A stretch of DNA of 64,000 nt from SAR92 clade bacterium. GTDB taxonomy: Bacteria > Pseudomonadota > Gammaproteobacteria > Pseudomonadales > Porticoccaceae. Positions 9,704-26,359 of this stretch are shown piece after piece; within the stretch, counting starts at the first letter, position 1; every line of letters begins with the position of its first letter. Made by a program: the position numbers and the translations under genes. The notes below the pieces were generated by a model that saw nothing but the letters and a program-made list of their open reading frames with translations, was not told the origin of the DNA and did not search any database. The stretch covers positions 1-64,000 of the forward strand of contig SHBP01000007.1 in the NCBI GenBank assembly GCA_004211905.1, given 5' to 3'.

Positions 9704-10171
9704 TTAATGTAAGGAGATATCAGTTTCCTCACCATATATCTGCGCAGTATCACTTTCAAGCCTATAGGTTATTATCAAACTTTCAACACACCTGTAGAGA
9801 AACCCAAGATTGTGCTGAAGTTCAGGGTAGTTTGCATTACCCTCTGAGAGCTCTCTCTCGAGACGTTTAATGGTACACCAATAAACATTTCGTGCTTCAT
9901 CAACTTGTCCAACTTTAAGCAAAGTATAAGCCAATAGTACAGAAGACGAAGACATCAATTCGTATGTCTGTCTTGGGTCCTCAACTTTTGAGGTCAGCAT
10001 GATATCTGAGGTTTCAAACGCGCAGCCTATATGAGGCAAAGCCTCTGACCATAAGCATTGATCATAAAATGATTGAGCTGTATCAAAAGCTATACCCCAA
10101 AAGGCCTTCGCTCTTGTGGGTTCATTCAGTAAATGTTCCCGATGCGTTTTGCATAAAAATCTCATATTCAT
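9704..10171 (-). CDS. Hypothetical helical protein, possibly Fur-region regulated
   Basis: 155 residues, soluble, rich in helix-forming and aromatic residues. The pairs FDTAQSFYDQCLWSEALPHIGCAFETS and LLAYTLLKVGQVDEARNVYWCTIKRLERE look like degenerate TPR helices, but I do not recognise a named family. The ATG at 10171 has a GAGG element 8 nt upstream. The gene is divergent from a 37-residue membrane peptide, and the shared 155-bp intergenic region holds a good sigma-70 promoter overlapping a Fur-box-like sequence. Iron control of this gene is an inference from that arrangement only. Confidence 0.6.
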   Translation of the reverse strand: MNMRFLCKTHREHLLNEPTRAKAFWGIAFDTAQSFYDQCLWSEALPHIGCAFETSDIMLTSKVEDPRQTYELMSSSSVLLAYTLLKVGQVDEARNVYWCTIKRLERELSEGNANYPELQHNLGFLYRCVESLIITYRLESDTAQIYGEETDISLH

Positions 10172-10256
10172 TAATGGTCCCTCTTAACTTTTTCTGTCCC
10201 TATATCTCACTAAACGCTCAGACGGTTTTCGTCTTTACTTATACGAAGAATAATAA

Positions 10257-10298
10257 TTGACTTAAAACCAAATGTAAATGATAATGATTCGTATTACG
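10257..10298 (+). promoter_or_regulatory. Sigma-70 promoter with overlapping Fur-box-like operator
   Basis: TTGACT at 10257-10262 and GATAAT at 10280-10285 with exactly 17 bp between them form a near-consensus promoter reading toward the 37-residue ORF at 10327. The -10 element is also the start of GATAATGATTCGTATTACG (10280-10298), which by my hand count matches the 19-bp Fur consensus at 13 positions, including the complete left GATAATGAT half. Fur bound there would cover the -10 and block transcription. Confidence 0.55.
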
Positions 10299-10326
10299 AT
10301 AATTGACACAAACCGACGAGGAACGC

Positions 10327-10440
10327 ATGAAAAAGAACAATCTAAGACTAAATATTAGCTACAAAATTATACGAGGTCTTCTCGTAACATCACTTGTCTT
10401 TTATGTTTACTACTATAGCTGGATCCTACTGTACCCATGA
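10327..10440 (+). CDS. 37-residue single-helix membrane peptide
   Basis: Short gene: ATG at 10327 with GAGGAA 4 nt upstream, stop TGA at 10438-10440. The peptide starts MKKNNLRLNISYK, a basic N-terminus, and continues into an aromatic, hydrophobic helix (GLLVTSLVFYVYYYSWILLYP), so a single inner-membrane span with the N-terminus inside is likely. The near-consensus promoter and the Fur-box-like site just upstream are the main argument that it is real. No family is recognised. It could belong to an iron-transport or cytochrome accessory group, but nothing adjacent proves this. Confidence 0.55.
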   Translation: MKKNNLRLNISYKIIRGLLVTSLVFYVYYYSWILLYP

Positions 10441-10503
10441 AACAGCTTCACTATATTACTTCTGACATTTTGCTGAGGCTAACGACCTTAATCAACCTCG
10501 CAC

Positions 10504-10525
10504 AAAAAAGGGAGCGTATGCTCCC
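10504..10525 (-). terminator. Rho-independent terminator of the downstream membrane-protein gene
   Basis: On the minus strand the sequence reads GGGAGC-ATAC-GCTCCC followed by six T. This is a canonical intrinsic terminator 20 bp after the stop of the gene at 10546-10941. Confidence 0.8.
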
Positions 10526-10545
10526 CCTCCTGAACTCTGTTTTGC

Positions 10546-10941
10546 CTATTTAGTTTGCCATATTTTTCCAAAAAGCATAATTGCAACCACTAGCCACCAT
10601 CCGGCCATAATCGGATTGCTAACAAGACTCATTTCAGGGACCCCTTCTACGCCCCAATCTGCAATGAAACGAACAGCATTAGCGCTCGATGCACCCATCT
10701 GAGCCAAGGAATGCGCTGTACTTTGAAGATTCAACGTCAGCAATGCTGAAACGGTTAATCCATTAAAAATAATGCCCGCCGAGAAAAGCGACAACAGCAC
10801 TCTATTCATCATTGGATCTTCATTCTTCAATAGATTGGCAGCTCTAAACGCAACCCATAAGATGAAAAACACGCCTGCTTGATACAAAGCGTTTGATATC
10901 AAAAAGCTTGAAAGTACACTCCAAATTTGAAACTCGTCCAT
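10546..10941 (-). CDS. Hypothetical inner-membrane protein
   Basis: 131 residues with hydrophobic stretches at about 11-35, 46-70 and 108-127, giving three or four membrane spans. A polar loop (QSTAHSLAQMGASSANAVRFIADWGVEGVPEM) lies between the second and third. The ATG has AGAGGA 7 nt upstream, and a clean intrinsic terminator follows the stop, so this is a monocistronic unit. I recognise no family or catalytic motif. The upstream region 10942-11151 contains only AT-rich sequence and presumably its promoter. Confidence 0.65.
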   Translation of the reverse strand: MDEFQIWSVLSSFLISNALYQAGVFFILWVAFRAANLLKNEDPMMNRVLLSLFSAGIIFNGLTVSALLTLNLQSTAHSLAQMGASSANAVRFIADWGVEGVPEMSLVSNPIMAGWWLVVAIMLFGKIWQTK

Positions 10942-11151
10942 TTTTATTTCCTCTTATTTTATTAATAGTTTTAGGTATGTTTTTAAATGACTGGTTAATA
11001 ATTTCTTACAACAGCCATAAAACTATAGTACAGATTTATACACTTATGGGTAAATTTACAGCGTTATACATATTACGGTACGAATCAAGTGTAAGCATAA
11101 GCCCAAGCTGACTTGTTGGTCCCGCAAACTTTTGTCTGTAAACTATGACCA

Positions 11152-11901
11152 ATGTTGGACTTTAGTTTCTTTACAATTCTGTGGGCATCTATCGCTTTTA
11201 TTATCTGTCTTTGCTTGTTTTTTATAACAGCACCTTATGGAAGGCACATTAGAGAGGGTTGGGGTCCATTGATTCCAGCTAGACTAGGCTGGATTTTAAT
11301 GGAATCGCCATGTGTGATCTTAGTTATCGGCTATGCCGCACTGGTCAGGCAGGACTTGCTACCCGTCCACCAAATCTTTTTACTCATCTGGTTAATCCAT
11401 TACACCCATAGAACATTGATATATCCAGTTGTCATGAGGATAACAAACCCTAAAATGCCGCTCAGTATCGCCCTGACTGCATTGTCATTTAATATTATTA
11501 ACGTCACTGTTCAATGTTTCGGTATCTTCTATTTCACCCAATACTCTGTAGATTGGATGCAGAGTTCCCCATTTGTACTCGGGTTGTCCCTTTTTTGTGT
11601 CGGTATGTTTATTAACATTAAGTCTGACTATATTGTCGCGGCACTAAAAAAAGAAAGAGGGCCTGGTTATCACATTCCTGATAAATTCCTGCACAAGTAT
11701 ATTGCTTCGCCCAATTACTTTGGTGAAATTATCGAATGGGCTGGCTGGGCTATGCTCACTTGGAGTGTTTCGGGCGTTTTGTTTCTAATTTGGACTATAG
11801 GCAATTTGTTTCCAAGGGCACTGGCTAATCACAGATGGTATCGTGAGAACTTTGACAACTATCCTAAAGAAAGAAAAGCCATCATTCCCGGTGTTATTTA
11901 G
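11152..11901 (+). CDS. 3-oxo-5-alpha-steroid 4-dehydrogenase (steroid 5-alpha-reductase) family membrane protein
   Basis: 249 residues, six or seven hydrophobic segments. The C-terminal third carries the family signature: KYIASPNYFGEIIEWAGWA, then the NADPH-binding ending ALANHRWYRENFDNYPKERKAIIPGVI with the conserved His and the Y-P-K-x-R-KAIIP block seen in steroid 5-alpha-reductases and enoyl reductases. The protein probably reduces a conjugated double bond in a hydrophobic substrate; whether that is a steroid, a polyprenol or a fatty chain cannot be told. Its stop overlaps by 4 bp the stop region of a convergent reductase gene. Confidence 0.8.
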   Translation: MLDFSFFTILWASIAFIICLCLFFITAPYGRHIREGWGPLIPARLGWILMESPCVILVIGYAALVRQDLLPVHQIFLLIWLIHYTHRTLIYPVVMRITNPKMPLSIALTALSFNIINVTVQCFGIFYFTQYSVDWMQSSPFVLGLSLFCVGMFINIKSDYIVAALKKERGPGYHIPDKFLHKYIASPNYFGEIIEWAGWAMLTWSVSGVLFLIWTIGNLFPRALANHRWYRENFDNYPKERKAIIPGVI

Positions 11902-12902
11902 AGTAAATCGAAGTCCTTCAGTTGTTGCGCAGTATCGATGATAGAGAGCTCCGCCTTCATGGGTTTCCAACCTAATAAGCTCCTAGCTTTTGAACTAGAA
12001 ACATCTCTTCGTTTTCCGATCATTGGGATCATTAATGCTAGATCCTTTCTAAAAAGGGCCACGATCTTCATTAGCCACTTAGGGAATAAAATCTTTGGTG
12101 TTTTATTAAACCCTGCGTCCCTCAGAATAGCCGCAACCTCATGAACCCATAGTTCTTTTTCAGACACTATAATCCTCTCACCATCAGCACCACTACTCTC
12201 CATGGCAAGAATATGAGCAGAGGCAACATCTCTGACATCAACAATTCCTATATGTATCTTAGGAGTACCTGGCACTGACCCGCTAATCATGCTCTTTACA
12301 AGTGAATTTGATGTTCCTACATCCTGAGATAAAGACGGCCCCATTACCAAAACTGGATTTATCACTGTTAAACTAAAGTCTGGATTCTCCATCTCCATAA
12401 ACTCCCAAGCAGCAAGCTCAGCCATGGTTTTACTTTTAGCATAGAAGCTAATTCCAGGTTTATTAGGGTTCGACCAATCCTCTTCACTAAAGGATTCCTG
12501 CCTATCATTTAATGTCTCATGAATAGCAGCAAAAGATGAGGTTAGTATGACTTTTTTTACATTGTGCTTCTTAGAAAATTTTAATGCTCTCTGAACACCT
12601 TCTACCGCAGGTTTAACGAAAAAATCCTCATCCTCGTCAGTCAAGACGAAGGGAGATGCCACATGCAGTACATAATTGCAGTCACTAATAGCCGAATCCC
12701 ATCCACTATCCCGGTTAAGGTCGACTTCAAAAAGAGATAAATGTGTGGTGGGTGTGTTATTACGCTCTAATGAGTCTAATACTTCAGCCTGCCTATCTAG
12801 TGATCTCAAAGTACCATTGACTCTGTATCCACGGTCCAATAATTGTTTAATGCAATGCAAACCTATAAAGCCCGTCGCTCCGGTTACCAAAACCTTTTCC
12901 AC
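11898..12902 (-). CDS. NAD(P)-dependent epimerase/dehydratase, dihydroflavonol-4-reductase-like
   Basis: 334-residue extended short-chain dehydrogenase. The N-terminus VLVTGATGFIGLHCIKQLL gives the GxxGxxG dinucleotide site. HVASPF, LTSSFAAIHE (catalytic Ser), and YAKSKTMAELAAW with the YxxxK pair near residue 155 complete the active site. The pattern HVASPF plus SFAA is shared with dihydroflavonol reductase, cinnamoyl-CoA reductase and bacterial aldehyde reductases of this branch; the true substrate is unknown. It is convergent with and overlaps (4 bp) the steroid-reductase-like gene. The 184-bp region on its other side (12903-13086) shows no gene I can support. Confidence 0.85.
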   Translation of the reverse strand: MEKVLVTGATGFIGLHCIKQLLDRGYRVNGTLRSLDRQAEVLDSLERNNTPTTHLSLFEVDLNRDSGWDSAISDCNYVLHVASPFVLTDEDEDFFVKPAVEGVQRALKFSKKHNVKKVILTSSFAAIHETLNDRQESFSEEDWSNPNKPGISFYAKSKTMAELAAWEFMEMENPDFSLTVINPVLVMGPSLSQDVGTSNSLVKSMISGSVPGTPKIHIGIVDVRDVASAHILAMESSGADGERIIVSEKELWVHEVAAILRDAGFNKTPKILFPKWLMKIVALFRKDLALMIPMIGKRRDVSSSKARSLLGWKPMKAELSIIDTAQQLKDFDLL

Positions 12903-13086
12903 TTAAAGACTCCTAAAATTTAATAAATACAGGTCACGTGTTCATAATATATCTTTTGCAAACATATCTCTCTTTTGGGTATCTCACAAAGGTATGTGAC
13001 GAGCTTGAAAGCTCAGGTTGAAGAGAGTTGAGTATTGCACACGACCAGTTAGAAAGGATCAGAAAGTTCTGTTTAGCGTGATAGAC

Positions 13087-13449
13087 TTAGCGTGAAGGAA
13101 CCTCTTTCCAAACACTGTCAGCAGTGAACTCTACCGATACAATGAACTCATGAGCCGTCCAATGTTCAATCATACTGAGCAAGTACTTCCCCCCTACTTT
13201 CTTGTATAAATGATACTGCTGCCCAACTCTTGGAACGAAATTATAGGATGAACTAAAGACAAGCTCATTCAGTTCTGCAAGCCTTCTTATTGAGTCATAT
13301 TCTCTATTCAACAACTCAACGGCATTCTCAAAGTAGTTTTTTGTTAATGATCCACGCTCTGATAGAAACAGTTCAGTATCAGGCATAACTATTGCGGGAG
13401 AACTTGATGTAGTCCCATAAGGCAAAAGTGCTTTTTTTATTTCAGCCAT
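13087..13449 (-). CDS. DUF2452-like protein
   Basis: About 120 residues counted from MAEIKKALLPYG (ATG at 13449); the frame stays open to an ATG at 13482, and neither start has a convincing ribosome binding site. The segment LPYGTTSSSPAIVMPDTE, then LNELVFSSSYNFVPRVGQQYHLYKK and a LLSMIEHWTAHEFIVSVEF ending, resembles the DUF2452 family (a short protein of unknown function common in marine bacteria and also in animals). I rest this on recall of the Y-x-F-x-P-x-x-G-x-x-YHLY pattern. The gene lies just outside the tRNA-Pro island, 131 bp from its right-hand repeat as read on the minus strand. Confidence 0.6.
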   Translation of the reverse strand: MAEIKKALLPYGTTSSSPAIVMPDTELFLSERGSLTKNYFENAVELLNREYDSIRRLAELNELVFSSSYNFVPRVGQQYHLYKKVGGKYLLSMIEHWTAHEFIVSVEFTADSVWKEVPSR

Positions 13450-13579
13450 AGGGCTTTGCTCATGTATCCAAGGGTATAGCATTCTGTACGCTAAACGCGC
13501 ACTCTTTGGATGAAGTTGAAACAGAAATAACGATTCGGATTGCTTTTTGGGTTAAACCATAAATACGAGATATTGAAAA

Positions 13580-13622
13580 TTGGTCGGGACGGCAGGATTT
13601 GAACCTGCGACCACTACACCCC
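13580..13622 (-). repeat. Distal attachment-site copy: 3' fragment of tRNA-Pro
   Basis: 43 bp identical to 25581-25623, the 3' end of the intact tRNA-Pro gene: CCA end, T-arm and part of the anticodon arm. The match stops inside the anticodon-loop C run (four C here, five in the tRNA), then AGTGT resumes before the sequences diverge. The copy lacks the D-arm and 5' acceptor strand, so it cannot make a tRNA. Confidence 0.85.
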
Positions 13623-13734
13623 AGTGTTATGATATTCGTTTCTTTATAAATCAATGACTTACGAAACTTTCTGCCCAGAAGTTGTTTCGCAAGTGCATTA
13701 CACTGAGGTGATATTTATCAGTAATCAAGCGATA

Positions 13735-16700
13735 CTATAAACTCGGCTTCAACATAGCTAAATGAGCCTCGATATCTTCTGCAGACGTTCTAGTCGCATC
13801 TCCCGCAACCACACCGTTAATTAGCGTATCGCCCTCTAAGCCGAACAAGTAGCGAAGAGTGAGTAGTCCATCAGTAAGAGCGTCTATCTCGCCATTACCA
13901 TCGATATCAGCAAGATCACCAAGAGTTTCGATGCGAGATTCAATTTCCACTGATTCAGTGAAGACAGCATCAGAAGCAATCGTCCCCGTTACTAATGCAT
14001 TTCCATCTAATCCAAACATCCCCCTAAGCAGAAGAAGTCCATCTGTCAGAGCGTCATACTGGCCATTTCCGTCGATATCTAGCGACCCGGACGGGATTGT
14101 CCCCGCCAAGAACTCATCTAAGGCCGAAACGCCATCATTATCTTGGTCACTTGTCGCATCTGAAGCATCATTTGGATTTAGCCCATACGTAGTTTCCCAG
14201 GCATCAGGCATGCCATCAGAGTCACTATCAAGTGAATAAACTGAATTATTGGGGAAGGCATCGGAGTTATCGCCTGTTCCATCACTATCACTATCTACTG
14301 TCTCAGTTGCATCATTAGGAAAAGCATCCGCATTATCTCCAACGCCATCTGAGTCCGTATCTTGACTCTCAGTGGCATCTAGTGGGAATGTATCAGCTCC
14401 ATCTGCAACATTATCTCCATCGTCATCCGTATCAGCATTATTGCCAATACCATCTGAATCTGTATCGATACTCTCTGCTGCATCAAGTGGGAAGGCATCA
14501 TTCTCATCCGATACACCATCATCATCATCATCATCATCTGCAACCATTCCCAACAATAGGCATTCGGAAGGGCAGTTATCAGGTATGCCATCAGAATCGG
14601 TATCAATAAGTCCGTTGAGTCCTATTAGCGGGTATGCATCTGTGATATCAGGCACACCGTCATTATCATCATCCGGATCACTGTTATTTCCGATACCGTC
14701 GCCATCAGTATCTATAGATTCAGTTAAATCATTTGGAAACGCATCCTCATCATCGGCAACTCTATCTCCGTCAGTATCATTGAGGATTGTAATTGTCACC
14801 TGAGCGTTACCGCTATCAATGGTGCCATCATTAGCTAAAAACTCAAAGCTATCGGCTTGGGCATTAGAGTCGTTAGACAGATAGATCGAGGTTTCTAAAA
14901 GAGTATCACCGACAGTAAATGGATTTTTATAACTCACCGTAAATGACTGCAACCCTGATGAGACGGTGGCATAGGCTTTAGTTTCATCGACTGACGGGAT
15001 AACATAATTGATTTCTTGATTGCCAGATGAGCTTAATAAAACTGGGGCAGAAGGATCGCTGATATTGACCATTCGAGGACCCACACGTTGAGATGTGGCA
15101 AGGTATGCCGTTAAGCCATTATTTGATATTTCAACGCTTCGCACAAAGCCAATATTAGTAACTGAGGCAATAAGAGCAGGACTGCTAGAGTTATCTACAT
15201 TAAAAACCTTTAACCCAAAATATCCATCTGCGACATAAAGCGTCGAGTTATCCTCTGATAAAGCAAGGGAATAAACCTCACCATGCGTATCCATACTATT
15301 TAGCAGGGTGAGCGCTGTTGGCTCGCTAATGTCGAGAACAGTGAAGCCCTTGAAGCCATCCCCAACATAAGCCCACTTATAGTCTGAGGACAGGGCGATA
15401 CTTTGAGCATCTCCGGGTGTGAGGAGGGTTGCGACGGCTATAGGATTCACTGGATCGCTAATATCAACTCGACTGACACCTGACAAGTGCGCAATATAGG
15501 CATAGTTCCCGTTGGCGGATAGAGCGATATCATATACTGACTCGCCAATAACGGCCGAGCTAACCAGAGTGGGGTTAAGTTTATCCGATACATTAATTAT
15601 TTTAAATCCAAGCGTACCGTCCGCCAAGAAAATAGTCTGTTCATCTTGTGAAAGGGTCGCTGATCTGGCCAGACCATCAGTATCTAGCACCGAAACTACG
15701 TCTAGGGCACCGGAGTCACTAATACTAATTAGCTTCAAACCGTCATTGCCATTGGCGACATACGCAGTTTTTTGGTCACGAGATAAGGCCAAGTCATAGA
15801 TTCTTACGTCAGATGCATAACTAGACTCCGGTTCAACCGATATATTTTTATAAAGCGAACCTGACGTTGGAGATTTAGTTAGCCGCATTGTTAGCTTATC
15901 CAGGTCAGCATCCTCACCCGATAGCGTTATTCGCTTGGGAATGCCTCTGATAACATCAACGTTTTGAGTAGCTGCGATCGGAGATTGATTTGGGTAACTA
16001 CCAAGCTTGATAATTGCTACACCGGAGAATCCAGCGGCAAGACCCTCCTTCGCAAGCTCGGTACCATCCGCAGATAAAATTGAGAAAAAGGTATCTACTT
16101 CTCCATTATCATTAATCCAGCCATCTCCAAAGCTATCGTACATATTCAATGGATAGCGACCGTCTCCAATACAGGTAAATAATAAGAGCTCCGCTCCGCC
16201 ACTCAGAAGGGGAATATCTGGATCATTGCCCATCAGGGACCAACTAATTTCATGGGGCCAAGGATTTTCTCCAGCCACAGAAACAAAACGTCCAGAGTTT
16301 GGGCAGTTGGTCATCACACTATTCACCGATGAGATAATCCTATGAATATCAGCTACGTTTTCAATGAACGATGACAGTCTGATGAAGGTTAAATATTGAT
16401 CGATGTAGCTTGGGGTAATCTCATTTAGGACGCTTACAGCTTCGAGATCAGCTAAGGTTAGGTTGGCAGTATCGCTGGTTAATGCAGCCGCTTCTATTTT
16501 AATAAGCGAAGTGTCATAGGCCACGGTGGCATTACAATCCTCGTTGGGTATTATCATAGAGACCCCATTTGAAATATCTGTACCTGGCCAATCTAATTTA
16601 CCTGGACAATAACTGACGATCTTAAGCTCCCTGTTTAAACTGAAGGCATCTGCTCCAATATTCGGCCGATCACCTAAAAAGCTCACAACAATAATGCTGT

Positions 16701-19700
16701 TGTATGAAAAAGATCCTGCTCCAATATCATTAATATTGGCACCCAAAGTAAGCCCCCCTAAAGAATTTTTATAGAAAGCGTAGTCTCCGATTTTCGATAT
16801 AGTCCCTGGAAGTGTTACTGAGGTTATGCCGCTATCAGCAAATGCATGATTCGAAACCCCGGTGATGGGAGAACTATTAATTTGCTCCGGTATGACTAGA
16901 TCAGAGGGGCATGGGCCAACACAGCCAGTAATTGTTAGTGTCTCATCGCTGTTTTCAGTATAGGTCCAGGTGCCATCATTATTAATAGAATCAGAAATAG
17001 ACACAGAGATTGTCGCCTGATTGCTATCCAGAGCCCCATCATTTACTTTGAAGACAAAATTATCAGTTCCAGGTCCATTCGACGGGCTGGTGTAATAAAG
17101 CTGAGGTGTAGTTATTTCCCCCGCCGTTACGGATTTCCTCTCTACACTGAATATCTCTAATCCTCCCGGTACAGACATTCCAGAGGCATAACTATAACGG
17201 TAATTAGAGTTATATAATGTGTCTCCCGCGGCAGACAACGTAAGTCCACTAGAATTTCCAAGTGTTGGAATGGTATCGATTAGAATAGGGTTTTTAGCAT
17301 CTCTGACATCTATAACCTTAACACCTGCAGTTTCCTCGCCCAGATAAATCGTACTTCCATCCGGAGACAGCGTTAACATATTAGGTGAACCCGCGCTATT
17401 ATAGAGATCTATAAATAAATTCCCCATTGGCTTTGGGTCAGTAGGGTCACTGATATCAATAATCACAAGACCGAAAGCCGTTGATGCTATGTAAGCTATT
17501 TTTTCGTCAGATGAGAGGACTAATGAGCCTGAGTAGCCACCAAAATTGTTTCCCAAGAGATCAATTTGAGTGGACACAGCACCTAGTTCGACAGGTGCAG
17601 AGGGATCACTTACATCGACGCTTTCTAGGAAATACCAATCAACAAGATAGAGTGTATTTCCATCTGCTGATAGAGCCGCATCGCTGATCGCGCCATAGCT
17701 AGAGAAAGTACTTAGCAAGCTTGGGTTACCTAGATCACTGACATCAATTATCTGTAATTGAGATGAGCGATCAGACACAAATGCAGTCTTCTCATCGAGC
17801 GAAAGAACAACACTCTTTGCCTGGCTTGGCGTATCATATTTGCCTAGCGGCTGAATGTTTGTAAGGTCTGATACATCGAATATTATAAGCCCTTCATTAC
17901 CTTGGGTTATAAACAGCGTGTTTTCATCTTTTGATAACACACCTCCTAAGTACTGTTCGTCGCGGCCTTCAAAATTTGATACCTCTGAGACAAAGGTAGG
18001 GTCTGAAGGATTACTAACATCGAGTAACCACAGATAGCAACCTGCAGAAAAAGCATGATCTTCGTCATCGAACAGGATCAAATCCCATGCAAATGAACAT
18101 GCATCTGGGGTCAGATCACGCTTAGCCCAATCTCCTAATTTTTCTCCCGAGAAAGCCTCTAATGTACCCGATGGATTGCTCGCTAATTCGTAGGACAATG
18201 GGGATCGCTCAGGATCTGCTCCGCGTAGGCCTATTAAAATCTCTTGCCCGGAGAGCGCTGTTAGAGATTGCTCGAAGGCAACCGGTGGATAATTCTGAAC
18301 GGCGACACCAGAGTCAGTAGTTATTTGAAGAGCGAAATTGTTGAGGCTACCTGCTCCAACATTCGTGAAAAAATTGCTTACCGTAAGTACCCAGTCTCCC
18401 TTCGAGGGTTGCTCATTAAACTGACTCAACGCGTCTTTTTGAGGCTTTTGACGGCCAGTAATTATCGGTACAGAATTTCCAGCTCCACAGCTGAAGTCAT
18501 CACCTTGATCATCAAAGATAGCGCTGATGCCAGAGCTTTGCCCACAGCCAGGTTGTTCAATTAGTGTGACAACTGTATTAGAGGGTGACGTTAGTGTGAT
18601 TTTTAAGAAGTTAACATTGTTTATGGTCATATCAAGTAATACATTAATGTCGCTGATTCGACCGTTTTCAGGGACTGATAGTGTGGATGTGTAAACACCA
18701 ATAAAAGGCTCTGCAGGAATAATTAGAGGAAGTTCTTTAGCTGATACAAAGTCAGGTGTTGTAAAGTTACCCACATCACCATATGTCCCGCTAGTACAGC
18801 GATTTAACGGGGAAACCCGCCAATAGTACTTAGTATCTCCTTCCAGGCCGTTGATCTCGAAGGAAGCCTCTGCAATGACAGCGTTATAGATTAATTCACT
18901 AAAGCTCTCCTCAGTTGATACTTCAATTCGATATTGATCTGCATTTATATCGGCCTTCCATGTTAGTGTCGCTTTTAGTTTCTCTGTGACGCTATCTTTA
19001 GAGGGACTTAATAATTTAATGGGGGAAAACTCAGCTTGATAGGCTTTAATATTGAGCACTTGAGATTGCGATCTGTTGTTTGATGTCGCATCGATATTAA
19101 TGGGATACGTGCCCGCTAAGATGTCAGCCCCAGCGGTAATGGTGGCACTAATCACTGTTCCATCAGCGGAGACACTCGCGGGTGAGAACCCAACACTTAA
19201 TGCCGTGGGAAGATTGCTGGCTGACAGCAGCACAGTATCGGCATACTCCGGTGAGGTTCTATATGTCAATGATGCGACAGTACTCTCAGCGCTACAAACT
19301 GTGTAGTCATATTGCTGAGCAGATAGAATGATATCTTTTCGAGTTAGAGAGAAGTTCTCGTTACTGATAGCATAAAAAATGTTGTTGTTATTGGGTTGGA
19401 TTCTGATGCGAGCTTCTGATGTTGCAAAGTCAGGCATCGTTACGTCATGGCTTCCATCATTATCCACATCGCTTGCCAATGTATAGGGGAATGTAAGGCC
19501 ACCATCTACCGACAGGGTAATTGTGACCTTGTCAGCTAGCATCGGGGCTAGATTTGTCCCCGCAATATTCCAGGCAACAGTGTGAGCCTCATTTGCTAAA
19601 TACATCAGGCCGTCTGCTGGTGAGGTGACACTAAAGGAACCACCCTGGTCAACAACGCTTACCTTCATCGTTTTTTGTGCAATTCCGCCTCCACCAACCG

Positions 19701-21375
19701 CATTATCCCGCACAGTAAAGCCAAAATTTAAGTCTCTCGGTACAGAGGATAGTGTTTCCCATGTTGACAAAGTGTTGGGGTTCTCAAGCGTTAGGTTCCC
19801 AGAGAGCACGCTGGACAGTTTAGGCATATACCTTTCACCGGCGCTGCTAGGAGATAGAGATCGGAAATTAGCGCCGCTAAGATTTTTCGGCCCAAAGCTA
19901 GTATCAGTGACAACTCCATCATCAATCTGTTCCCACGTGTAGCTGAGCACATCATCACTGTCCTCATCCGTAGCGCTGCCACTCAAAATATAAGGGGTCA
20001 GAATAGGTACAGTTCGATCCGGTATATCCTCAACAACAGGGAGGCTGTTCTCATTTGGCATGTCAACGTGACAACTCTGGTTTTGCAGGTAGGCTAGTGT
20101 TTGCTCGATGCTCACATAGTGGAAATATTCATCGCCCTGGAGGGCTACGTTATTTGAGCCAGTAATACCCGCATAACTCATTACCGTTGTCCCGCTGCCC
20201 GGCTCAACATTCTTACCCGTCCCCTCTGAGCGGTCGGAGAATGTATGGTTCGCGCCCACCTGGTGTCCGATCTCATGGGCAACAAGTTTTGTAAAATTAG
20301 AGCCCTCAGGTTGCAGCGAGTCTGACCATGCGCTTCCTTTAGATTTGTTATCACAAAAACCACCAATAGCACCTGCATAACCACATCCGCCAAAGCCACA
20401 GCTTATTGCACTAAAGATATGACCATGATCATAGTTAGCAGACCCAATTACGGCATCTAAATTAATCTGTAGCTCACTACTTAACGCACCCTCACTATCG
20501 GTATAAGGGTCCGTTGCTGGGTCTGTGTAAATAATAAGGTCATTGTTATCTACCAATTCAAGAGTGATACCAAAGTCGCGCTCAAAGATCGCGTTCACAT
20601 GAGTGAGCGTGGCATTTATTCCCGCCAGTGCGCCGGCGACAGTGCCACCGTGATATCTTGTGTACTGGCCATTAGTTGATACAGCGAGGCGGTATTTTGT
20701 GAGCGTGCTCGCATTAGAAAATTTACTCTGGTTCTCGTAGATTCTAGAAAAACTGCTATTAGTCAATCGGTTACTGGCTGGATTAATAGTTACTGAATTA
20801 GTCGGGGTAGTACAAATGAAACCATCTCGAGATTTAACAGCTTCAGTAAGGTCTGCTACAGCGTATGTGTTAGTGCCTCTAATCTTTTCAATAGTGACTT
20901 TTTCTGGCCGAGTACTACTGGTAATAGCAGCCTGTATACCCTCCGGCGCAAGACTAAAATGGATTTTCTGACTGGCGTCGTTTACTGCAACCCCAATGAA
21001 TGCACTAATTTCAGGAAATTTAGCCGCCAAGATTGGGGAGAAGTTTGATTTTTCTTTCACATCAAACGCTATCATTTCTCCAAATGCGTTAGGGAAATAG
21101 ATAATATTTTGTTTTTTAGCTAGTCCAATTTTTGATCTCAGAGCAGTCTGCAAAATGGATGTATCCAGGGACACAACGAGACCTGAAGGTGTTGTCGAAC
21201 CAATGGTATTTTTGGACAATATTAGAGGATCATTATTTTCTGAAGACCAATAAGCAAAGTCTTGATTATCATCCCAAATTCGCTCTACTTTTTCGTTGCT
21301 ATAAGCTGGGACAATTACAATAAAGGGAAGTATTAAGATAACTATTTTTGTGGCGCCACTAATATTTTTAAACAT
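13735..21375 (-). CDS. Giant secreted reprolysin-like metalloprotease with propellers, thrombospondin-3 repeats and dockerin-like end
   Basis: 2546 residues. In order: signal peptide (about 1-27, ending PAYS); prodomain-like part; metzincin catalytic domain with HEIGHQVGANH at 367-377 (three zinc His and the catalytic Glu) and the Met-turn TTVMSYAG; Ig/fibronectin-like domains; a proprotein-convertase P-domain-like segment (about 890-1030); a seven-repeat LVIVD propeller (about 1090-1415); a BspA-type leucine-rich stretch (HAFADSGITSVTLPGTI, about 1490-1590); a second seven-repeat propeller (about 1850-2140); Asp-rich thrombospondin type 3 repeats (about 2200-2390); and two EF-hand-like dockerin-type repeats (DIDGNG-x-DALTDGLL). 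It should be exported, calcium-stabilised and adhesive or proteolytic. It starts 23 bp after the stop of the related 1279-residue gene. The target is unknown. Confidence 0.85.
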   Translation of the reverse strand: MFKNISGATKIVILILPFIVIVPAYSNEKVERIWDDNQDFAYWSSENNDPLILSKNTIGSTTPSGLVVSLDTSILQTALRSKIGLAKKQNIIYFPNAFGEMIAFDVKEKSNFSPILAAKFPEISAFIGVAVNDASQKIHFSLAPEGIQAAITSSTRPEKVTIEKIRGTNTYAVADLTEAVKSRDGFICTTPTNSVTINPASNRLTNSSFSRIYENQSKFSNASTLTKYRLAVSTNGQYTRYHGGTVAGALAGINATLTHVNAIFERDFGITLELVDNNDLIIYTDPATDPYTDSEGALSSELQINLDAVIGSANYDHGHIFSAISCGFGGCGYAGAIGGFCDNKSKGSAWSDSLQPEGSNFTKLVAHEIGHQVGANHTFSDRSEGTGKNVEPGSGTTVMSYAGITGSNNVALQGDEYFHYVSIEQTLAYLQNQSCHVDMPNENSLPVVEDIPDRTVPILTPYILSGSATDEDSDDVLSYTWEQIDDGVVTDTSFGPKNLSGANFRSLSPSSAGERYMPKLSSVLSGNLTLENPNTLSTWETLSSVPRDLNFGFTVRDNAVGGGGIAQKTMKVSVVDQGGSFSVTSPADGLMYLANEAHTVAWNIAGTNLAPMLADKVTITLSVDGGLTFPYTLASDVDNDGSHDVTMPDFATSEARIRIQPNNNNIFYAISNENFSLTRKDIILSAQQYDYTVCSAESTVASLTYRTSPEYADTVLLSASNLPTALSVGFSPASVSADGTVISATITAGADILAGTYPINIDATSNNRSQSQVLNIKAYQAEFSPIKLLSPSKDSVTEKLKATLTWKADINADQYRIEVSTEESFSELIYNAVIAEASFEINGLEGDTKYYWRVSPLNRCTSGTYGDVGNFTTPDFVSAKELPLIIPAEPFIGVYTSTLSVPENGRISDINVLLDMTINNVNFLKITLTSPSNTVVTLIEQPGCGQSSGISAIFDDQGDDFSCGAGNSVPIITGRQKPQKDALSQFNEQPSKGDWVLTVSNFFTNVGAGSLNNFALQITTDSGVAVQNYPPVAFEQSLTALSGQEILIGLRGADPERSPLSYELASNPSGTLEAFSGEKLGDWAKRDLTPDACSFAWDLILFDDEDHAFSAGCYLWLLDVSNPSDPTFVSEVSNFEGRDEQYLGGVLSKDENTLFITQGNEGLIIFDVSDLTNIQPLGKYDTPSQAKSVVLSLDEKTAFVSDRSSQLQIIDVSDLGNPSLLSTFSSYGAISDAALSADGNTLYLVDWYFLESVDVSDPSAPVELGAVSTQIDLLGNNFGGYSGSLVLSSDEKIAYIASTAFGLVIIDISDPTDPKPMGNLFIDLYNSAGSPNMLTLSPDGSTIYLGEETAGVKVIDVRDAKNPILIDTIPTLGNSSGLTLSAAGDTLYNSNYRYSYASGMSVPGGLEIFSVERKSVTAGEITTPQLYYTSPSNGPGTDNFVFKVNDGALDSNQATISVSISDSINNDGTWTYTENSDETLTITGCVGPCPSDLVIPEQINSSPITGVSNHAFADSGITSVTLPGTISKIGDYAFYKNSLGGLTLGANINDIGAGSFSYNSIIVVSFLGDRPNIGADAFSLNRELKIVSYCPGKLDWPGTDISNGVSMIIPNEDCNATVAYDTSLIKIEAAALTSDTANLTLADLEAVSVLNEITPSYIDQYLTFIRLSSFIENVADIHRIISSVNSVMTNCPNSGRFVSVAGENPWPHEISWSLMGNDPDIPLLSGGAELLLFTCIGDGRYPLNMYDSFGDGWINDNGEVDTFFSILSADGTELAKEGLAAGFSGVAIIKLGSYPNQSPIAATQNVDVIRGIPKRITLSGEDADLDKLTMRLTKSPTSGSLYKNISVEPESSYASDVRIYDLALSRDQKTAYVANGNDGLKLISISDSGALDVVSVLDTDGLARSATLSQDEQTIFLADGTLGFKIINVSDKLNPTLVSSAVIGESVYDIALSANGNYAYIAHLSGVSRVDISDPVNPIAVATLLTPGDAQSIALSSDYKWAYVGDGFKGFTVLDISEPTALTLLNSMDTHGEVYSLALSEDNSTLYVADGYFGLKVFNVDNSSSPALIASVTNIGFVRSVEISNNGLTAYLATSQRVGPRMVNISDPSAPVLLSSSGNQEINYVIPSVDETKAYATVSSGLQSFTVSYKNPFTVGDTLLETSIYLSNDSNAQADSFEFLANDGTIDSGNAQVTITILNDTDGDRVADDEDAFPNDLTESIDTDGDGIGNNSDPDDDNDGVPDITDAYPLIGLNGLIDTDSDGIPDNCPSECLLLGMVADDDDDDDGVSDENDAFPLDAAESIDTDSDGIGNNADTDDDGDNVADGADTFPLDATESQDTDSDGVGDNADAFPNDATETVDSDSDGTGDNSDAFPNNSVYSLDSDSDGMPDAWETTYGLNPNDASDATSDQDNDGVSALDEFLAGTIPSGSLDIDGNGQYDALTDGLLLLRGMFGLDGNALVTGTIASDAVFTESVEIESRIETLGDLADIDGNGEIDALTDGLLTLRYLFGLEGDTLINGVVAGDATRTSAEDIEAHLAMLKPSL
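13738..14238 (-). repeat. Shared C-terminal cassette, copy in the 2546-residue gene
   Basis: Codes for the segment from DSDSDG-x-PDAWETTYGLNPNDA through the dockerin-like repeats to the end. It is clearly similar at DNA level to 21402-21903 in the same orientation; around 14160-14205 long runs are identical to 21820-21870. Points to duplication of a C-terminal module or of the whole gene. Confidence 0.75.
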
Positions 21376-21398
21376 TTTTATAGTATCTCAACTTGAAT

Positions 21399-24300
21399 TC
21401 ATAGTTCGGGTATCAAAGCTTTTAGATGAGCCTCAATCTCTACCGCGGTTGTTCTGGTCGCATCAGAGGCCACTACTCCAGCAATTAAGGTGTCCCCTTC
21501 TAAACCAAACAAATACCTCAATGTCAGCAAGCCATCTGTAAGGGCATCTATTGTGCCATTGCCATCGATATCTGCTAAATCACCCAGCGTTGCTATGCGG
21601 GACTCAATATCAACTGATTCTGTATAAGCCGCATCAGACGCTACGGTGCCTGTTACCAATGCACTACCGTCTAATCCAAACATTCCTCTGAGCAAAAGCA
21701 GTCCGTCTGTAAGGGCGTCATAACGCTGATTTCCATCAATATCGATTGAGTTAAAGGGGTGTGTATTTGCGAGGAATTCGTCTAGGGCAGAGACACCATC
21801 GTTATCCTGGTCACTTGTCGCATCTGCAGCATCATTTGGATTTAGCCCATACGTAGTTTCCCAGGCATCGGGTATCCCATCGCTATCGGAATCTTGAGAG
21901 TAAAGGTTGTTCTCTGGATAAGCATCATTATTATTGGCAACACCATCATCATCAGAATCGTTTGTTGGATCTAAAGGTGAGCTATCATTTTCATCAGCAA
22001 CACCGTCACCATCATCATCGGTATCCATTGTATTAAATATTCCATCGCTATCAGTGTCGATATCCTCAGTTCTACTCACGATTGAAGACAAAGATATATT
22101 AGTTCCATTAAATCTAGACCACATAGCCTCAACAAACGGTCCGTCCATTGCCATCGTAGGCCAAAATGCGGTTTCGCTATCAAAAGATAAATCTACAGGA
22201 GTCGTCCATGAAGAACTTGTGGTTGACTTGCTGCTGAATTGAACGACATTGTGGATACCATTGGAGCGTACCCAAGTAATACCAACTGAACCATTGGTGC
22301 GATCATCAACGTCAAGGCTAGGTAGCTTAGCGTGCTGTCCAGCAACTGACAGTGGGATAGGGGTGCCCCAGCTAAGTTGCGCATCCATTTCAGCTGCATA
22401 TACACGGAAGTCAGTACCATCGAATGCATACCAAGTCGTTACAGCTCTATTATTGGACAAGAAAGCAACTGTTTTTCGGTCAAGCTCAACTGACCTGTTG
22501 AACGCATCATGACCATTTGCTGAGAGTTGAGTAATTGATCCCAGCGTGCCACCCACCTTTTGTCTATAGCGCGCCATGATGTTACCTTTGGCTGCAAGTT
22601 TCTCTCCAGCTACTGCGTCAGCTTGCCGCCATGTGATTATCGCATTTCCATTAATATCTAATGCGGACTCGGCAAAGCCACCATGCAGAGTCTGATTGAT
22701 ATCTGAATAAGTTTCCACATCTCCCCATATCTCGGTATCAGCATCCCTATAACGGCCCTTTATTGCGAAGGCTCCATTGCCTGATATTTGCTGCCACGTA
22801 ACTAAAATATCGCCATGTGTGTTTATGCTTACCGATGGATCCTCTATTGCGGTAGTTCCATCGATCAGTGAAAGCGCAGTAGCCCATGAGCCCTCTATAT
22901 TTTTGTAACCAAACATAACAGACGGTGGCAAATTCCCGCTAGAGGCATCCTTGCGGCTCAGCCAAACTGCAGCTGCAACACCTGATTTATTCATAGTAAG
23001 ATCAGAGCGATAATTATTTCCTGTAGAAGAAAGAGAAATTGTGTTCGGCGTACCCCATTGGCTACCATTATGACTGACAACCTCTATACCCTTTCCACTT
23101 GACGGTTCCCATAAAGCGAGGGCATTACCGGCTTCATCAATTTGTATTTGGTGCGCAGCCACGGAATTACCACTTGCTGTAGGAAAAGATGTGGTAGCTC
23201 CCCACACGCCATCTGCTCCTTTGTAAGAAAGTTTTGCCTGCCCATCCCCAGAGCTACCATCTTCCCATATTGCAGCAGATGCCGATGTGCCATCGGGTAA
23301 CGAGGATAATCCAAGTGTAGGGAAAATCCCATGTTGATATGGAGATGAACCAGAATCTGGTCCAGCAGCAATATTCTCCCAAACTCTTGGGATATTTGTG
23401 GATACTGATCTAGAGTCAGGGGATATTGAAGACTTATGTTTTCTTTGGACGTAATTAGCGGCGTAAGAATCTATTCCCGGGGCATTAGTATCGATGATTT
23501 CATTTCTCTCCAGCCAGTCCCTTAAAGCAGTGGAGAACAGTCTTCCATAGGTTGGGGTGTTTAATGTGAATGATTGCTCTGTTAAGAAGCGGCCCTTATT
23601 TTCATACCCGAGCTCATTTGCATAAGGAATCCAGGTACTCATATAACTTCGCTCTGGATTGCTATGGTCGAGTCCTGTGTATCCAATAAATGATTGATCT
23701 GAGAGCTCAAGATCCATGACGGCTGGTGGCCAAGTCCCCGCAACATGTTTTATTCCAATGACATGACCAAGTTCATGTATTAGCACAGCAAGCGGGCTTT
23801 TATATGCGTCGATAACCACGGTCGCGCCGTTTCTCGATGACAGAGTCCCATTTAAAAATGTGGTACCAGTTACGTTGACCCAATCACTTAATCGGGCAAA
23901 AACAAGATTAATATGTCCTTCGCGGGCAACAGGTAGGTTAGCAAAGTCATACAGGATGGCATCGGTTCTCTTTGTTTCGACATACTCGGGTGAGTAAAAC
24001 GTTGAGATTGCAGCCAATTCAAAACCATCCCAGTGATCGTTACTGTAAAGCTCAAAGTACTCTGAGTTTACAGAGGCCAGCATATCCCTTATTTCTTGTT
24101 CGGTGGGCGTTGGCTTCTCTTGTGTCCCGTCTCGCAGTGTCCAGCAACCACAATCAAGTGTGATGTCATTAGTTATAATGATGGCATTAATTTTGACAGC
24201 CTTTGATTTGTCATTGGCCACAGGAATACTCTTGTAAGGGAGAACTTTAATTTCAGTATCCAACTCATAATGCCCTATTCCTCCAACTAGTCCATCAACC

Positions 24301-25238
24301 ATGTCTTCGCCCCACAAATCTTGACATTTCCTAATGCAGTAATCGTCGTCGTACTCCCCAAGTGGCGTTACAGCTATGTAGTACTTTCCAGTAGATGGAA
24401 GACTACTCAATATCCTTGCATTTCCGAAGGGTACGAATCCCTCATCACTTACAATTAGGTCAAAATTCTGATCAAATAAAAACAACTTTCCAGCAATAAA
24501 GCCCTCTCTATCACTGGGAAACGGCTCTATTATATCTAGCTGGATTTGCACAAAGTCATCTTTATTGGCAGTAAATGTCCAGACATCGACATTATTAGCT
24601 CTAGTTAAATGATCTTCATTTTTGATTCGCCAAAGACTGGTATCTTTATTAAAACCAGGGAGTTGTTCATACGCTAAATTTCGAATATCAGGGAGCTTTT
24701 CGAAGGGTGTAATCAATAATTGCTGTCCACTTGTATTAGTCACGGCTAGAGCAAACCCACCATGATCATTTCGGTAGCCATTTACTCTGAGTGTAAATAT
24801 TCCTGTTTCACTGGCTGTCAGGGTGTGTGGAAGGCAGCCTGGGTCGCTATCCCGCCAATAGCATTCATTTCCACTCGCAGACCTCTGCATTTGTCTTCGC
24901 ATCATTGCAACAGAGCCGTCTGGATTAAAAATTTCTAAAAAGGGCTCATTCAATTGTTGGGGACTACCGCCCACATTTATAGGTTTCTGTGAAACATTTG
25001 CCCGATATAAGTCAAACGTGTAATCGCTCCCACCGGTAAGGGCTACGGTAAAATATTGGCTTTGGTATTCTTTTCTTACAAAGCCATATTCTGGGTAGAG
25101 TTGAAGCTGGTCGCTGCTAACTCTCGAAGACGCGGATACTTCATTCGTATTGGTAAAGGCAGAAGAAGATAAAAAAACAAGGGCTGATAATATAACGAAT
25201 TTGACACAGTATTGCGGAATACTTAAACGTGAAGCCAT
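21399..25238 (-). CDS. Secreted metzincin-type metalloprotease with thrombospondin-3 and dockerin-like C-terminus
   Basis: 1279 residues. A signal peptide (about 1-30, FVILSALVFLSSSAFT) precedes Ig-like or PPC-like beta domains (FTLRVNGYRNDHGGFALAV). The catalytic site is HELGHVIGIKH at 488-498, matching the metzincin HExxHxxGxxH, followed by the Met-turn-like AVMDLELS. Residues about 640-1045 form a repeated beta domain with WxxxDG and LS-type strands, perhaps a propeller (sialidase-like repeats such as SINTHGDILVTWQQ and DINGNAIITWRQ). From about 1058, thrombospondin type 3 repeats (DTDSDGIFNTMDTDDDGDG) lead into two dockerin-like EF-hand repeats ending at PEL. It is the promoter-proximal gene of the island operon. 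The substrate is unknown. Confidence 0.85.
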   Translation of the reverse strand: MASRLSIPQYCVKFVILSALVFLSSSAFTNTNEVSASSRVSSDQLQLYPEYGFVRKEYQSQYFTVALTGGSDYTFDLYRANVSQKPINVGGSPQQLNEPFLEIFNPDGSVAMMRRQMQRSASGNECYWRDSDPGCLPHTLTASETGIFTLRVNGYRNDHGGFALAVTNTSGQQLLITPFEKLPDIRNLAYEQLPGFNKDTSLWRIKNEDHLTRANNVDVWTFTANKDDFVQIQLDIIEPFPSDREGFIAGKLFLFDQNFDLIVSDEGFVPFGNARILSSLPSTGKYYIAVTPLGEYDDDYCIRKCQDLWGEDMVDGLVGGIGHYELDTEIKVLPYKSIPVANDKSKAVKINAIIITNDITLDCGCWTLRDGTQEKPTPTEQEIRDMLASVNSEYFELYSNDHWDGFELAAISTFYSPEYVETKRTDAILYDFANLPVAREGHINLVFARLSDWVNVTGTTFLNGTLSSRNGATVVIDAYKSPLAVLIHELGHVIGIKHVAGTWPPAVMDLELSDQSFIGYTGLDHSNPERSYMSTWIPYANELGYENKGRFLTEQSFTLNTPTYGRLFSTALRDWLERNEIIDTNAPGIDSYAANYVQRKHKSSISPDSRSVSTNIPRVWENIAAGPDSGSSPYQHGIFPTLGLSSLPDGTSASAAIWEDGSSGDGQAKLSYKGADGVWGATTSFPTASGNSVAAHQIQIDEAGNALALWEPSSGKGIEVVSHNGSQWGTPNTISLSSTGNNYRSDLTMNKSGVAAAVWLSRKDASSGNLPPSVMFGYKNIEGSWATALSLIDGTTAIEDPSVSINTHGDILVTWQQISGNGAFAIKGRYRDADTEIWGDVETYSDINQTLHGGFAESALDINGNAIITWRQADAVAGEKLAAKGNIMARYRQKVGGTLGSITQLSANGHDAFNRSVELDRKTVAFLSNNRAVTTWYAFDGTDFRVYAAEMDAQLSWGTPIPLSVAGQHAKLPSLDVDDRTNGSVGITWVRSNGIHNVVQFSSKSTTSSSWTTPVDLSFDSETAFWPTMAMDGPFVEAMWSRFNGTNISLSSIVSRTEDIDTDSDGIFNTMDTDDDGDGVADENDSSPLDPTNDSDDDGVANNNDAYPENNLYSQDSDSDGIPDAWETTYGLNPNDAADATSDQDNDGVSALDEFLANTHPFNSIDIDGNQRYDALTDGLLLLRGMFGLDGSALVTGTVASDAAYTESVDIESRIATLGDLADIDGNGTIDALTDGLLTLRYLFGLEGDTLIAGVVASDATRTTAVEIEAHLKALIPEL
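21402..21903 (-). repeat. Shared C-terminal cassette, copy in the 1279-residue gene
   Basis: Partner of 13738-14238. It encodes the same WETTYGLNPNDA thrombospondin-3 junction and the same paired DIDGN-DALTDGLL repeats. Differences are mostly silent or conservative. Confidence 0.75.
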
Positions 25239-25333
25239 CCTTACACTCTCTTTTTTTTATTATTTAAGGGTAATAGCAAGCTTTTAAGCTGACGATAGTA
25301 TACTTAATAGTCCTATTCACAATAGAATTATAA

Positions 25334-25603
25334 AACTCAGGTGGACAACTAGCACCGAAGGGTCGGCAAACAAAATTGGCTGCAACATTATTAAAGAATG
25401 CAGGGAATACAAATAAACAAATCAAAGAGATTATGGCTCACGAATCTATCAACACTACACTAGATTACATGAACCCCGATGATCACCCTTTGAAACCGTT
25501 ACTATACACATCTGATTTTTGTGCAATTTTTTGTGCAATTTTTGTGCAGTTAGTAACTACTATCAACGAAAACCGCGTGGTTGGTCGGGACGGCAGGATT
25601 TGA
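25334..25603 (+). pseudogene. C-terminal remnant of a tyrosine-recombinase integrase
   Basis: The frame from the stop at 25331 encodes GRQTKLAATLLKNAG, then KQIKEIMAHESINTTLDYMNP. This matches the end of the phage-integrase catalytic domain: the box II Arg neighbourhood, the HESINTT region and the nucleophile Tyr of LDY. There is no start and no N-terminal two thirds; sequence upstream is not integrase-like. The frame then runs through the short repeats into the tRNA-Pro gene, stopping at 25603; similarity to integrases ends near 25510. Its position next to the tRNA attachment site fits the enzyme that once inserted the island. Confidence 0.75.
25516..25549 (+). repeat. Three tandem TTTTTGTGCA repeats near the attachment site
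   Basis: TTTTTGTGCAA at 25516-25526 and 25528-25538, and TTTTTGTGCAG at 25539-25549, spaced 12 and 11 bp, about one helical turn. They lie between the integrase remnant and the tRNA. Their place and spacing fit arm-type integrase or excisionase binding sites; no equivalent is seen at the other island end. Confidence 0.5.
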
Positions 25604-25623
25604 ACCTGCGACCACTACACCCC
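25581..25623 (-). repeat. Proximal attachment-site copy within tRNA-Pro
   Basis: Identical 43 bp to 13580-13622. It begins one base beyond the CCA end and stops within the C run of the anticodon loop, so integration restored a full tRNA gene on this side. Confidence 0.85.
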
Positions 25624-25658
25624 CAGTGTAGTGCGCTACCAGGCTGCGCTACGCCCCG
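25582..25658 (-). tRNA. tRNA-Pro, anticodon GGG
   Basis: 77 nt with encoded CCA. The minus strand folds as a full cloverleaf: acceptor CGGGGCG paired with CGTCCCG (one G-T), D-stem GCGC/GCGC, anticodon stem CTACA/TGTAG around the loop CTGGGGG (anticodon GGG at positions 34-36), five-base variable region, T-stem GCAGG/CCTGC with loop TTCAAAT. It reads proline codons CCC and CCU. Its 3' end serves as island attachment site. Confidence 0.95.
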
Positions 25659-25722: not shown

Positions 25723-26076
25723 CTAACTTAACTCTTTCAGAACATCCTCTAACTCAGAGATGGTTTGATCAATTAGTTGCTTGTAAGGGGTCTGTTCTTT
25801 TTTGGAAGGCGTGTCATCAAGCTTCTGCTTTGCACCACCGATTGTAAACCCTTGTTCATACAGTAATGAACGGATCTGACGGATAAGAACAACATCTTGA
25901 CGTTGATAATAGCGCCTATTGCCCCTGCGCTTAACTGGCGTTAGGCTGGGGAATTCTTGTTCCCAATAACGTAAAACGTGTGGTTTAACTCCGCAGAGCT
26001 CGCTCACTTCACCAATCGTAAAATAGCGCTTGCCTGGAATTGCGGGTAATTGATTGTTGTTACTTGGTTCCAGCAT
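25723..26076 (-). CDS. MerR-family transcriptional regulator downstream of ihfA
   Basis: 117 residues from the ATG at 26076 (a TTG three codons earlier is possible). A winged helix-turn-helix follows: [27 protein letters not shown], then [37 protein letters not shown]. This is the small MerR protein nearly always found directly after ihfA in Gammaproteobacteria; it lacks an effector domain and metal-binding cysteines. Its function is not known. The start lies 17 bp inside the ihfA 3' end, so the two are co-translated. Confidence 0.88.
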
Positions 26077-26359
26077 AGGTCTCAACTCGTGCTTTCAATT
26101 TTTGACCTGGTTTGAAGGTAACGACACGTCTAGCCGAGATAGGAATCTCTTCACCTGTCTTAGGATTTCTGCCAGGTCTGCTCTTCTTATCTCGAAGTTC
26201 AAAATTACCAAACCCTGAAATCTTGACCTGATCATTATTTTCTAGGGCCAAGCTGATCTCACCATAGAACATTTCGACAATTTCTTTAGCTTCACGCTTA
26301 TTAAGCCCAAGTTCATCGAACAGCATCTCTGCTAAATCTGCTTTGGTTAGTGCACCCAT
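26060..26359 (-). CDS. ihfA: Integration host factor alpha subunit
   Basis: 99 residues. DNA-bending nucleoid protein that pairs with Ihf[27 protein letters not shown] begins the helical dimer core; the beta-arm contains [23 protein letters not shown] with the intercalating Pro of the RNPKTG tip; then [12 protein letters not shown]. The ATG at 26359 is preferred over the TTG one codon before. It lies 41 bp downstream of pheT in the usual pheST-ihfA order. Confidence 0.96.

Follow-up and report, generated by a model that had tools for sequence, protein, structure and literature searches.

A 12-kb island with two very large protease-like genes at tRNA-Pro(GGG) of a SAR92 clade bacterium, probably composite and decayed

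The window, a 64,000-nucleotide stretch of DNA from a SAR92 clade bacterium, carries an insert of about 12 kb at tRNA-Pro(GGG) in which two very large protease-like genes are the only cargo. We propose, with a probability of about 0.7, that this insert is an integrative island, composite and decayed, at a tRNA gene, tRNA-Pro(GGG), that serves as a hotspot. The end distal to the tRNA gene matches a phage and the tRNA-side end matches other genomes, indicating that two elements gave one end each. Since these ends are unlike and would stem from two elements, we regard the island as composite. Site-specific integration at the 3' end of the tRNA gene is well supported.

Results

The window belongs to a draft genome of 38 contigs (90.86% complete), which was compared with a genus set of 50 genomes including its own (G000; G numbers denote genomes of this set) and with a class set of 369 genomes. 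The features of the island and its host neighbours are given in Table 1. A sequence-only reading of the window had placed the far border at a perfect 43-bp copy of the tRNA 3' end, and the two copies are indeed identical. A repeat of this kind is far beyond chance, and 49 bp of the same tRNA end are also the core of a phage attP site. The description of the cargo as two giant genes only was likewise borne out. Proteins A and B are encoded by long open reading frames without interruption, on the same strand and 23 bp apart, that fill the interval between the repeats, and each contains an HExxHxxGxxH motif. The stop codon of A lies 16 bp from the phage-type arm and the other end of the operon lies 137 bp from the integrase remnant. 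GC3 values of 0.378 (A) and 0.365 (B), compared with 0.373-0.436 in four neighbours, do not set the two genes apart in composition. Promoter and terminator scans gave no signal above that of shuffled sequence.

Table 1. Positions of the island features and host neighbours in the window
Feature	Position	Strand	Basis or remark
DUF2452 gene, host neighbour; adjoins tRNA-Pro at the empty site	13087-13482	-	PF10504
Distal 43-bp copy of the tRNA-Pro 3' end	13580-13622		Exact repeat of 25581-25623
Phage-type attachment site remainder, right arm	13623-13718		87/92 to IMG/VR phage outside the 49-bp core
Protein A, 2546 aa	13735-21375	-	ORF list, Pfam, motif
Dockerin-like two-repeat tail of A	13738-14079	-	
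Protein B, 1279 aa, first gene of likely operon	21399-25238	-	ORF list, Pfam, motif
Dockerin-like two-repeat tail of B	21402-21743	-	
Tyrosine-integrase gene 3' remnant, second element, ~140 bp	25376-25515	+	
Left arm of second element with TTTTTGTGCAA-like repeats	25516-25580		
Attachment core at tRNA, 49 bp	25581-25629		Identical to phage attP core; first 43 bp = direct repeat
tRNA-Pro(GGG), intact, insertion target	25582-25658	-	ARAGORN
MerR-like regulator, host neighbour upstream of tRNA-Pro	25723-26085	-	Named by eye

The proposed insertion at tRNA-Pro was checked by looking for an empty site among relatives, the slot being located by means of the MerR-like gene and DUF2452, and it was supported. 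In G068 and G009 the order merR - tRNA-Pro - DUF2452 was found on a single contig, with the DUF2452 match 221 bp and 476 bp from the tRNA repeat, respectively; these are empty sites. The nearest relative, G006 (MerR 99%, DUF2452 97%), has the left flank of the window directly abutting an intact tRNA-Pro, the match across flank and core being 656/730. The merR side of G006 lies on a second, unjoined contig, and the overlap of the two contigs spans the tRNA with one mismatch just beyond. Neither of the patterns that had been named as contrary to an insertion, the genes without the repeat or the repeat without the genes by vertical descent, was seen, and the body of B occurred in one of the 50 genus genomes, its own.

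The sequence 3' of tRNA-Pro was readable in 23 genomes, in which we assigned classes by eye. It was terminator-like in 11, and in two further genomes (G006 and G068) DUF2452 adjoined the tRNA gene. The arm of the second element was found in three (the window, G059 and G015), another arm beside one common cargo in two (G019 and G025), and other sequence in the remaining five (G002, G003, G004, G008 and G029). The contigs of several relatives end at or past tRNA-Pro. In G019 (L050), which also has the arm motif, a 17-kb segment extends from tRNA-Pro to a second exact 43-bp copy, the terminator-like flank being shifted to the far side of the segment and DUF2452 lying 2.7 kb beyond; judged by eye, this cargo looks like an alpha-glucan utilisation locus. 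G025 (L066) shares cargo and arm with G019 and has DUF2452 past them, and no second tRNA-end copy was found within 9 mismatches in the 20 kb examined. In G007 the tRNA-Pro core recurs with 1 mismatch next to a diverged arm, accompanied by still other genes. As a separate observation, element-like sequence flanks the tRNA-Pro core on both sides at about 8700-8810 of contig C5 of G007 (L148), as if two elements lay in tandem.

The distal border was traced to a phage attachment site. The phage attP is arranged as integrase, left arm, a 49-bp core identical to the tRNA end, and right arm, and positions 13580-13718 of the window match its core and right arm at 135 of 141 positions (87/92 outside the core). 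Within the arm, a 20-bp motif, TTATAAATCAATGACTTACG, occupies 13644-13663. With at most one mismatch this motif was present in 4 of the 50 genus genomes, always beside a copy of the tRNA-Pro end. One of the four bearers, contig C164 of G032 (L149), is a phage contig encoding a Sak-like annealing protein, a RecE-like exonuclease and an integrase (E 1.7e-41), the last of which recurs at 100% identity in four IMG/VR records. When phage records were examined for the sequence near the distal border, the best 10 of 406 matches were tRNA-like only, with none covering 80% of the query. We also considered the motif as a marker of this island family and rejected it because viral contigs often contain it (in at least 120 stretches). 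The G032 phage contig, which has an attP for tRNA-Pro, encodes in addition a very long protein that matches phrog_14770 (unknown function); the stretch ends within this protein, after 1346 aa.

On the tRNA side, the near border had been described as an integrase remnant with short repeats, which the comparison upheld: the remnant aligns with other genomes and TTTTTGTGCAA-like units occupy about 25515-25548. The protein match of the remnant is below the Pfam cut-off (PF00589, E 0.0056, 16.9 versus 27.1 bits), with E 6e-4 against phrog_216. Outside the tRNA, the remnant and arm match G059 at 174 of 208 positions and G015 at 62 of 73, and the remnant matches G027 at 169 of 189. Its identity is firm because the DNA aligns with the same remnant elsewhere (G059, G027). 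Integrase homology starts at 25375-25376, with one 1-bp gap relative to relatives near the end of the remnant; hence roughly 140 bp of the gene remain. We also considered a second-type remnant beside tRNA-Ala in G027 and withdrew it, as an N gap lies between the two and the remnant side runs into a tRNA-Pro end.

This remnant is distinct from the phage integrase. The tRNA-side arm and the phage left arm share nothing longer than 9 bp, a tblastn search of the G032 contig (limit 0.01) gave no match of the remnant to the phage integrase gene, and the best match in four IMG/VR loci (E 0.11) was located elsewhere than the integrase gene. The earlier assumption that both borders come from one element was not supported: the distal border is of the phage attP type, the tRNA side is that of a different integrase element, and the ends of different elements were found at one site. 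The island contains no intact integrase, and in this respect lacks a defining feature of tRNA islands, a functional integrase. A PF00589 search of the window's own draft genome gave no match, Xer proteins included, and all 14 control genomes were positive. Because the Xer proteins were missing too, we do not trust this negative result, which perhaps reflects an assembly or search gap.

Part of the cargo was found at a second tRNA site. Contig C43 of G024 (L402, 1-1700) starts inside an ortholog of A that is 82% identical over the last 547 residues of A (2000-2546) and 83.8% identical in DNA over 1622 columns. A 36-nt 3' fragment of tRNA-Ala(GGC) (35/36) follows 12 bp past the A stop codon, with the relative orientation seen in the window. 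G024 lacks the phage arm, B was not found in it, and its contig is cut inside A. Two IMG/VR loci (L369 and L370) encode an integrase 44% identical to that of the phage and have a tRNA-Ala end beside the TTATAAATCAATGACTTACG motif, and tRNA-Ala fragments were also found on contigs with second-type remnants in G015 (44/48) and G003 (48/50). The G024 arrangement supports the view that the A cargo may have moved between tRNA sites in the past. Of the transferable niche function that had been suggested for the island, past transfer thus gains support from the A ortholog at the tRNA-Ala fragment, and present ability does not: because no intact integrase is left, transferable describes the history of the island.

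Protein A has the two marks of an M12B metzincin, an HExxHxxGxxH motif (HEIGHQVGANH at residue 367) and a family profile above the cut-off (Reprolysin_4 of Pfam, E 8.1e-44, 150.2 versus 22 bits). It is composed of an M12B reprolysin-like part, a P-domain, LVIVD repeats, BspA-type LRR, Asp-rich repeats and a two-repeat tail. Judged by its family, A is likely to carry out secreted proteolysis. As read from their sequences, both A and B are predicted to be exported and their Asp-rich repeats to bind calcium; TSP3-type NCBIfam matches were below the cut-off. Residues 1-1900 of A had some match in 23 of the 50 genus genomes, many via repeats, and long homologs (38-53%) were found in 11 relatives and as a paralog on contig C1 of the window's own genome.

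Among GTDB contigs we found 87 relatives of the first 700 residues of A, of which 80 were kept; according to their record titles 79 of these are flavobacterial, and the other is from the Porticoccaceae; scans of these contigs and of IMG/VR reach close relatives only. Five of five flavobacterial relatives tested had a type IX sorting domain over the cut-off (four TIGR04183, one TIGR04131), and a home-made type IX end pattern fitted 67 of 78 complete ORFs. The Porticoccaceae relative, which equals G027 in the tree, ended in a JDVT-CTERM motif just over the cut-off (27.8 versus 27). L285 (Porticoccaceae UWMA-0313), at 9980-18586, encodes a 2869-aa A-family protein with a JDVT-CTERM end in place of the two-repeat tail. 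In the tree, from which the genus homologs of G003 and G068 were left out (too short or not recovered), the 12 genus rows (A and 11 others, one a duplicate record) formed one clade with SH-aLRT 100 against 79 flavobacterial rows. Within this clade island A is a long separate branch (0.71), and its paralog on C1 groups with the G006 homolog. Given this placement, recent import of A from the Flavobacteriaceae is not favoured, and A would be a diverged member of a family already in the genus instead of a fresh cross-phylum import. The flavobacterial M12B proteases with type IX domains resemble A in the N-terminal 700 residues (37-46% identity among the loci listed), whereas additional propeller/LRR parts are present in A, which terminates in Asp-rich repeats and the two-repeat tail.

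The zinc motif of protein B, HELGHVIGIKH, is at residue 488, and the similarity of B to Matrixin is weak (0.012 at full length; 5.4e-4 for residues 300-620, 20.3 bits versus a cut-off of 24). It also has weak PPC similarity, Asp-rich repeats and a tail as in A. A single-sequence model of the catalytic segment was unusable (mean pLDDT 31.7), so the reading of B as a protease is plausible from its zinc motif. Residues 1-1000 had no match in the 49 other genus genomes (50 searched), residues 22-620 matched only the own genome among 369 class genomes, and searches of GTDB contigs, IMG/VR and plasmids gave no relatives of the B body.

The tails of A and B each consist of two repeats of about 57 residues (DxDGNGxxDALTDGLLxLR...) and are 84% identical to each other. 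There were 15 tail matches in the own genome, and 32 of the 50 genus genomes had matches. The proteins concerned are large, varied and otherwise different, and the tail may be C-terminal, close to the N-terminus or central in them (for example L151-L159). The tail model was confident (95.7) and gave no fold match in PDB or BFVD at E<=0.001. Against Dockerin_1 the tail of A scored 10.4 versus 22.9 bits, below the cut-off, and that of B had no Dockerin match at E<=5. Dockerin matches at E<=1 were found in 13 of 40 tail family members (best 0.001), and the best PDB sequence matches of the tail were to the xylanase Y dockerin (E 0.015). A cohesin search of the own draft genome gave no match, with controls positive in 2 of 14. 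Like type I dockerins, the tail has a DxDGNG loop followed by a helix. Unlike them, its repeats are about 57 residues apart, the island tails score below the Pfam cut-off, and cohesin was not found in the own genome. The tail may serve as a calcium-binding display or retention module.

Discussion

In the mechanism that we propose, a phage like that of G032 and IMG/VR, or a related one sharing its attP, would have integrated by recombination of its 49-bp core with the tRNA 3' end, leaving attR at 13580-13718. A second element, whose integrase differed, would have integrated at the same tRNA end and left attL and the 3' end of its integrase gene at 25376-25580. Loss of DNA between the elements would then have removed both sets of machinery while the B-A operon stayed, and the cell would export A and B for use as extracellular or surface proteases. 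Here we infer the order of events, the element that brought the operon, and the export, expression and substrate of the proteins. No relative with both elements and B-A was found among the genomes read, and attachment arms could also have been exchanged as modules, without two insertions.

A different account would need one element only: a single integrase-bearing island whose integrase decayed in place, the phage-like arm being a module that some phages have in common with an island family. The frequency of the 20-bp arm motif in viral contigs suits this account, as do the diverged arms that adjoin the same core and other cargo in G007 and G019. However, the phage match outside the core (87/92) goes well beyond the 20-bp motif, and the integrase remnant does not match at the phage integrase gene. 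We therefore consider a single island unlikely.

The host origin of the cargo also has to be weighed. That B and A are old host genes, the repeat being an incidental fragment from a separate insertion, would agree with the presence of the A family in the genus (11 relatives and the own paralog, with long homologs at 38-53%) and with tails and GC3 that look native. We give this very little credence, since G006 has an ortholog of A's paralog but its site is without B-A, a search of the 49 other genus genomes did not find B, and no more than 16 bp and 137 bp separate the operon from the arm and the remnant, respectively. Slighter still is the chance that the assembly joined unrelated pieces at the tRNA gene. 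Contigs of several relatives do end at this tRNA, but in the window a single contig contains both borders, the operon and the host flanks, and each of the two border types is found next to tRNA-Pro ends elsewhere, in other genomes. Thus we retain a composite, decayed island as the preferred reading.

Islands of related kinds have been described. In the part of the report available, the additive flexible genomic island at tRNA-Lys of Methylophilaceae (PMC10872708) represents tRNA-gene islands with variable cargo; as in the window, insertion is at the tRNA 3' end, repeated 3' fragments form the borders and cargo varies among relatives. Unlike that island, the one described here carries nothing but two giant protease-like genes, and one of its borders can be traced to a phage attP. 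In Shewanella putrefaciens, CGI48 at tRNA-Trp, as outlined in the accessible text (PMC8978831), similarly involves more than one element at one tRNA site, whereas in our island just the ends of the elements survive. Tycheposons and hitcher elements, so far as the available portions of the sources describe them (PMC10872708, PMC11389934), share tRNA-bordered cargo and possible helper dependence with our island, which differs in having no intact recombinase. The open-licence literature yielded no paper joining SAR92, genomic island and tRNA, and none joining Porticoccaceae and metalloprotease. The tRNA island and the composite island are known kinds; moderate interest comes from the cargo, from the border matched to a phage and from the possible exchange of tails.

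A broader proposal covers the whole genus: phage integrases would act on phage-derived ends and in this way shift integrase-less islands of giant secreted hydrolases between tRNA-Pro and tRNA-Ala, and a protease family that Flavobacteriaceae also have would swap its type IX domain for the host two-repeat calcium-binding tail, which would be the genus's own display or sorting signal. We hold this proposal to be rather doubtful. The C-terminal modules of the A family do vary by lineage (type IX domain, JDVT-CTERM, two-repeat tail), so that the idea of tail exchange can be put to the test, and the dockerin-like tail, widespread but with no cohesin detected, poses a separate question. Matching the border to an actual phage means that the vehicle is pointed to instead of guessed. 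For this marine gammaproteobacterium of the uncultured type, the island would represent protein-degrading capacity that is swapped at one chromosomal slot.
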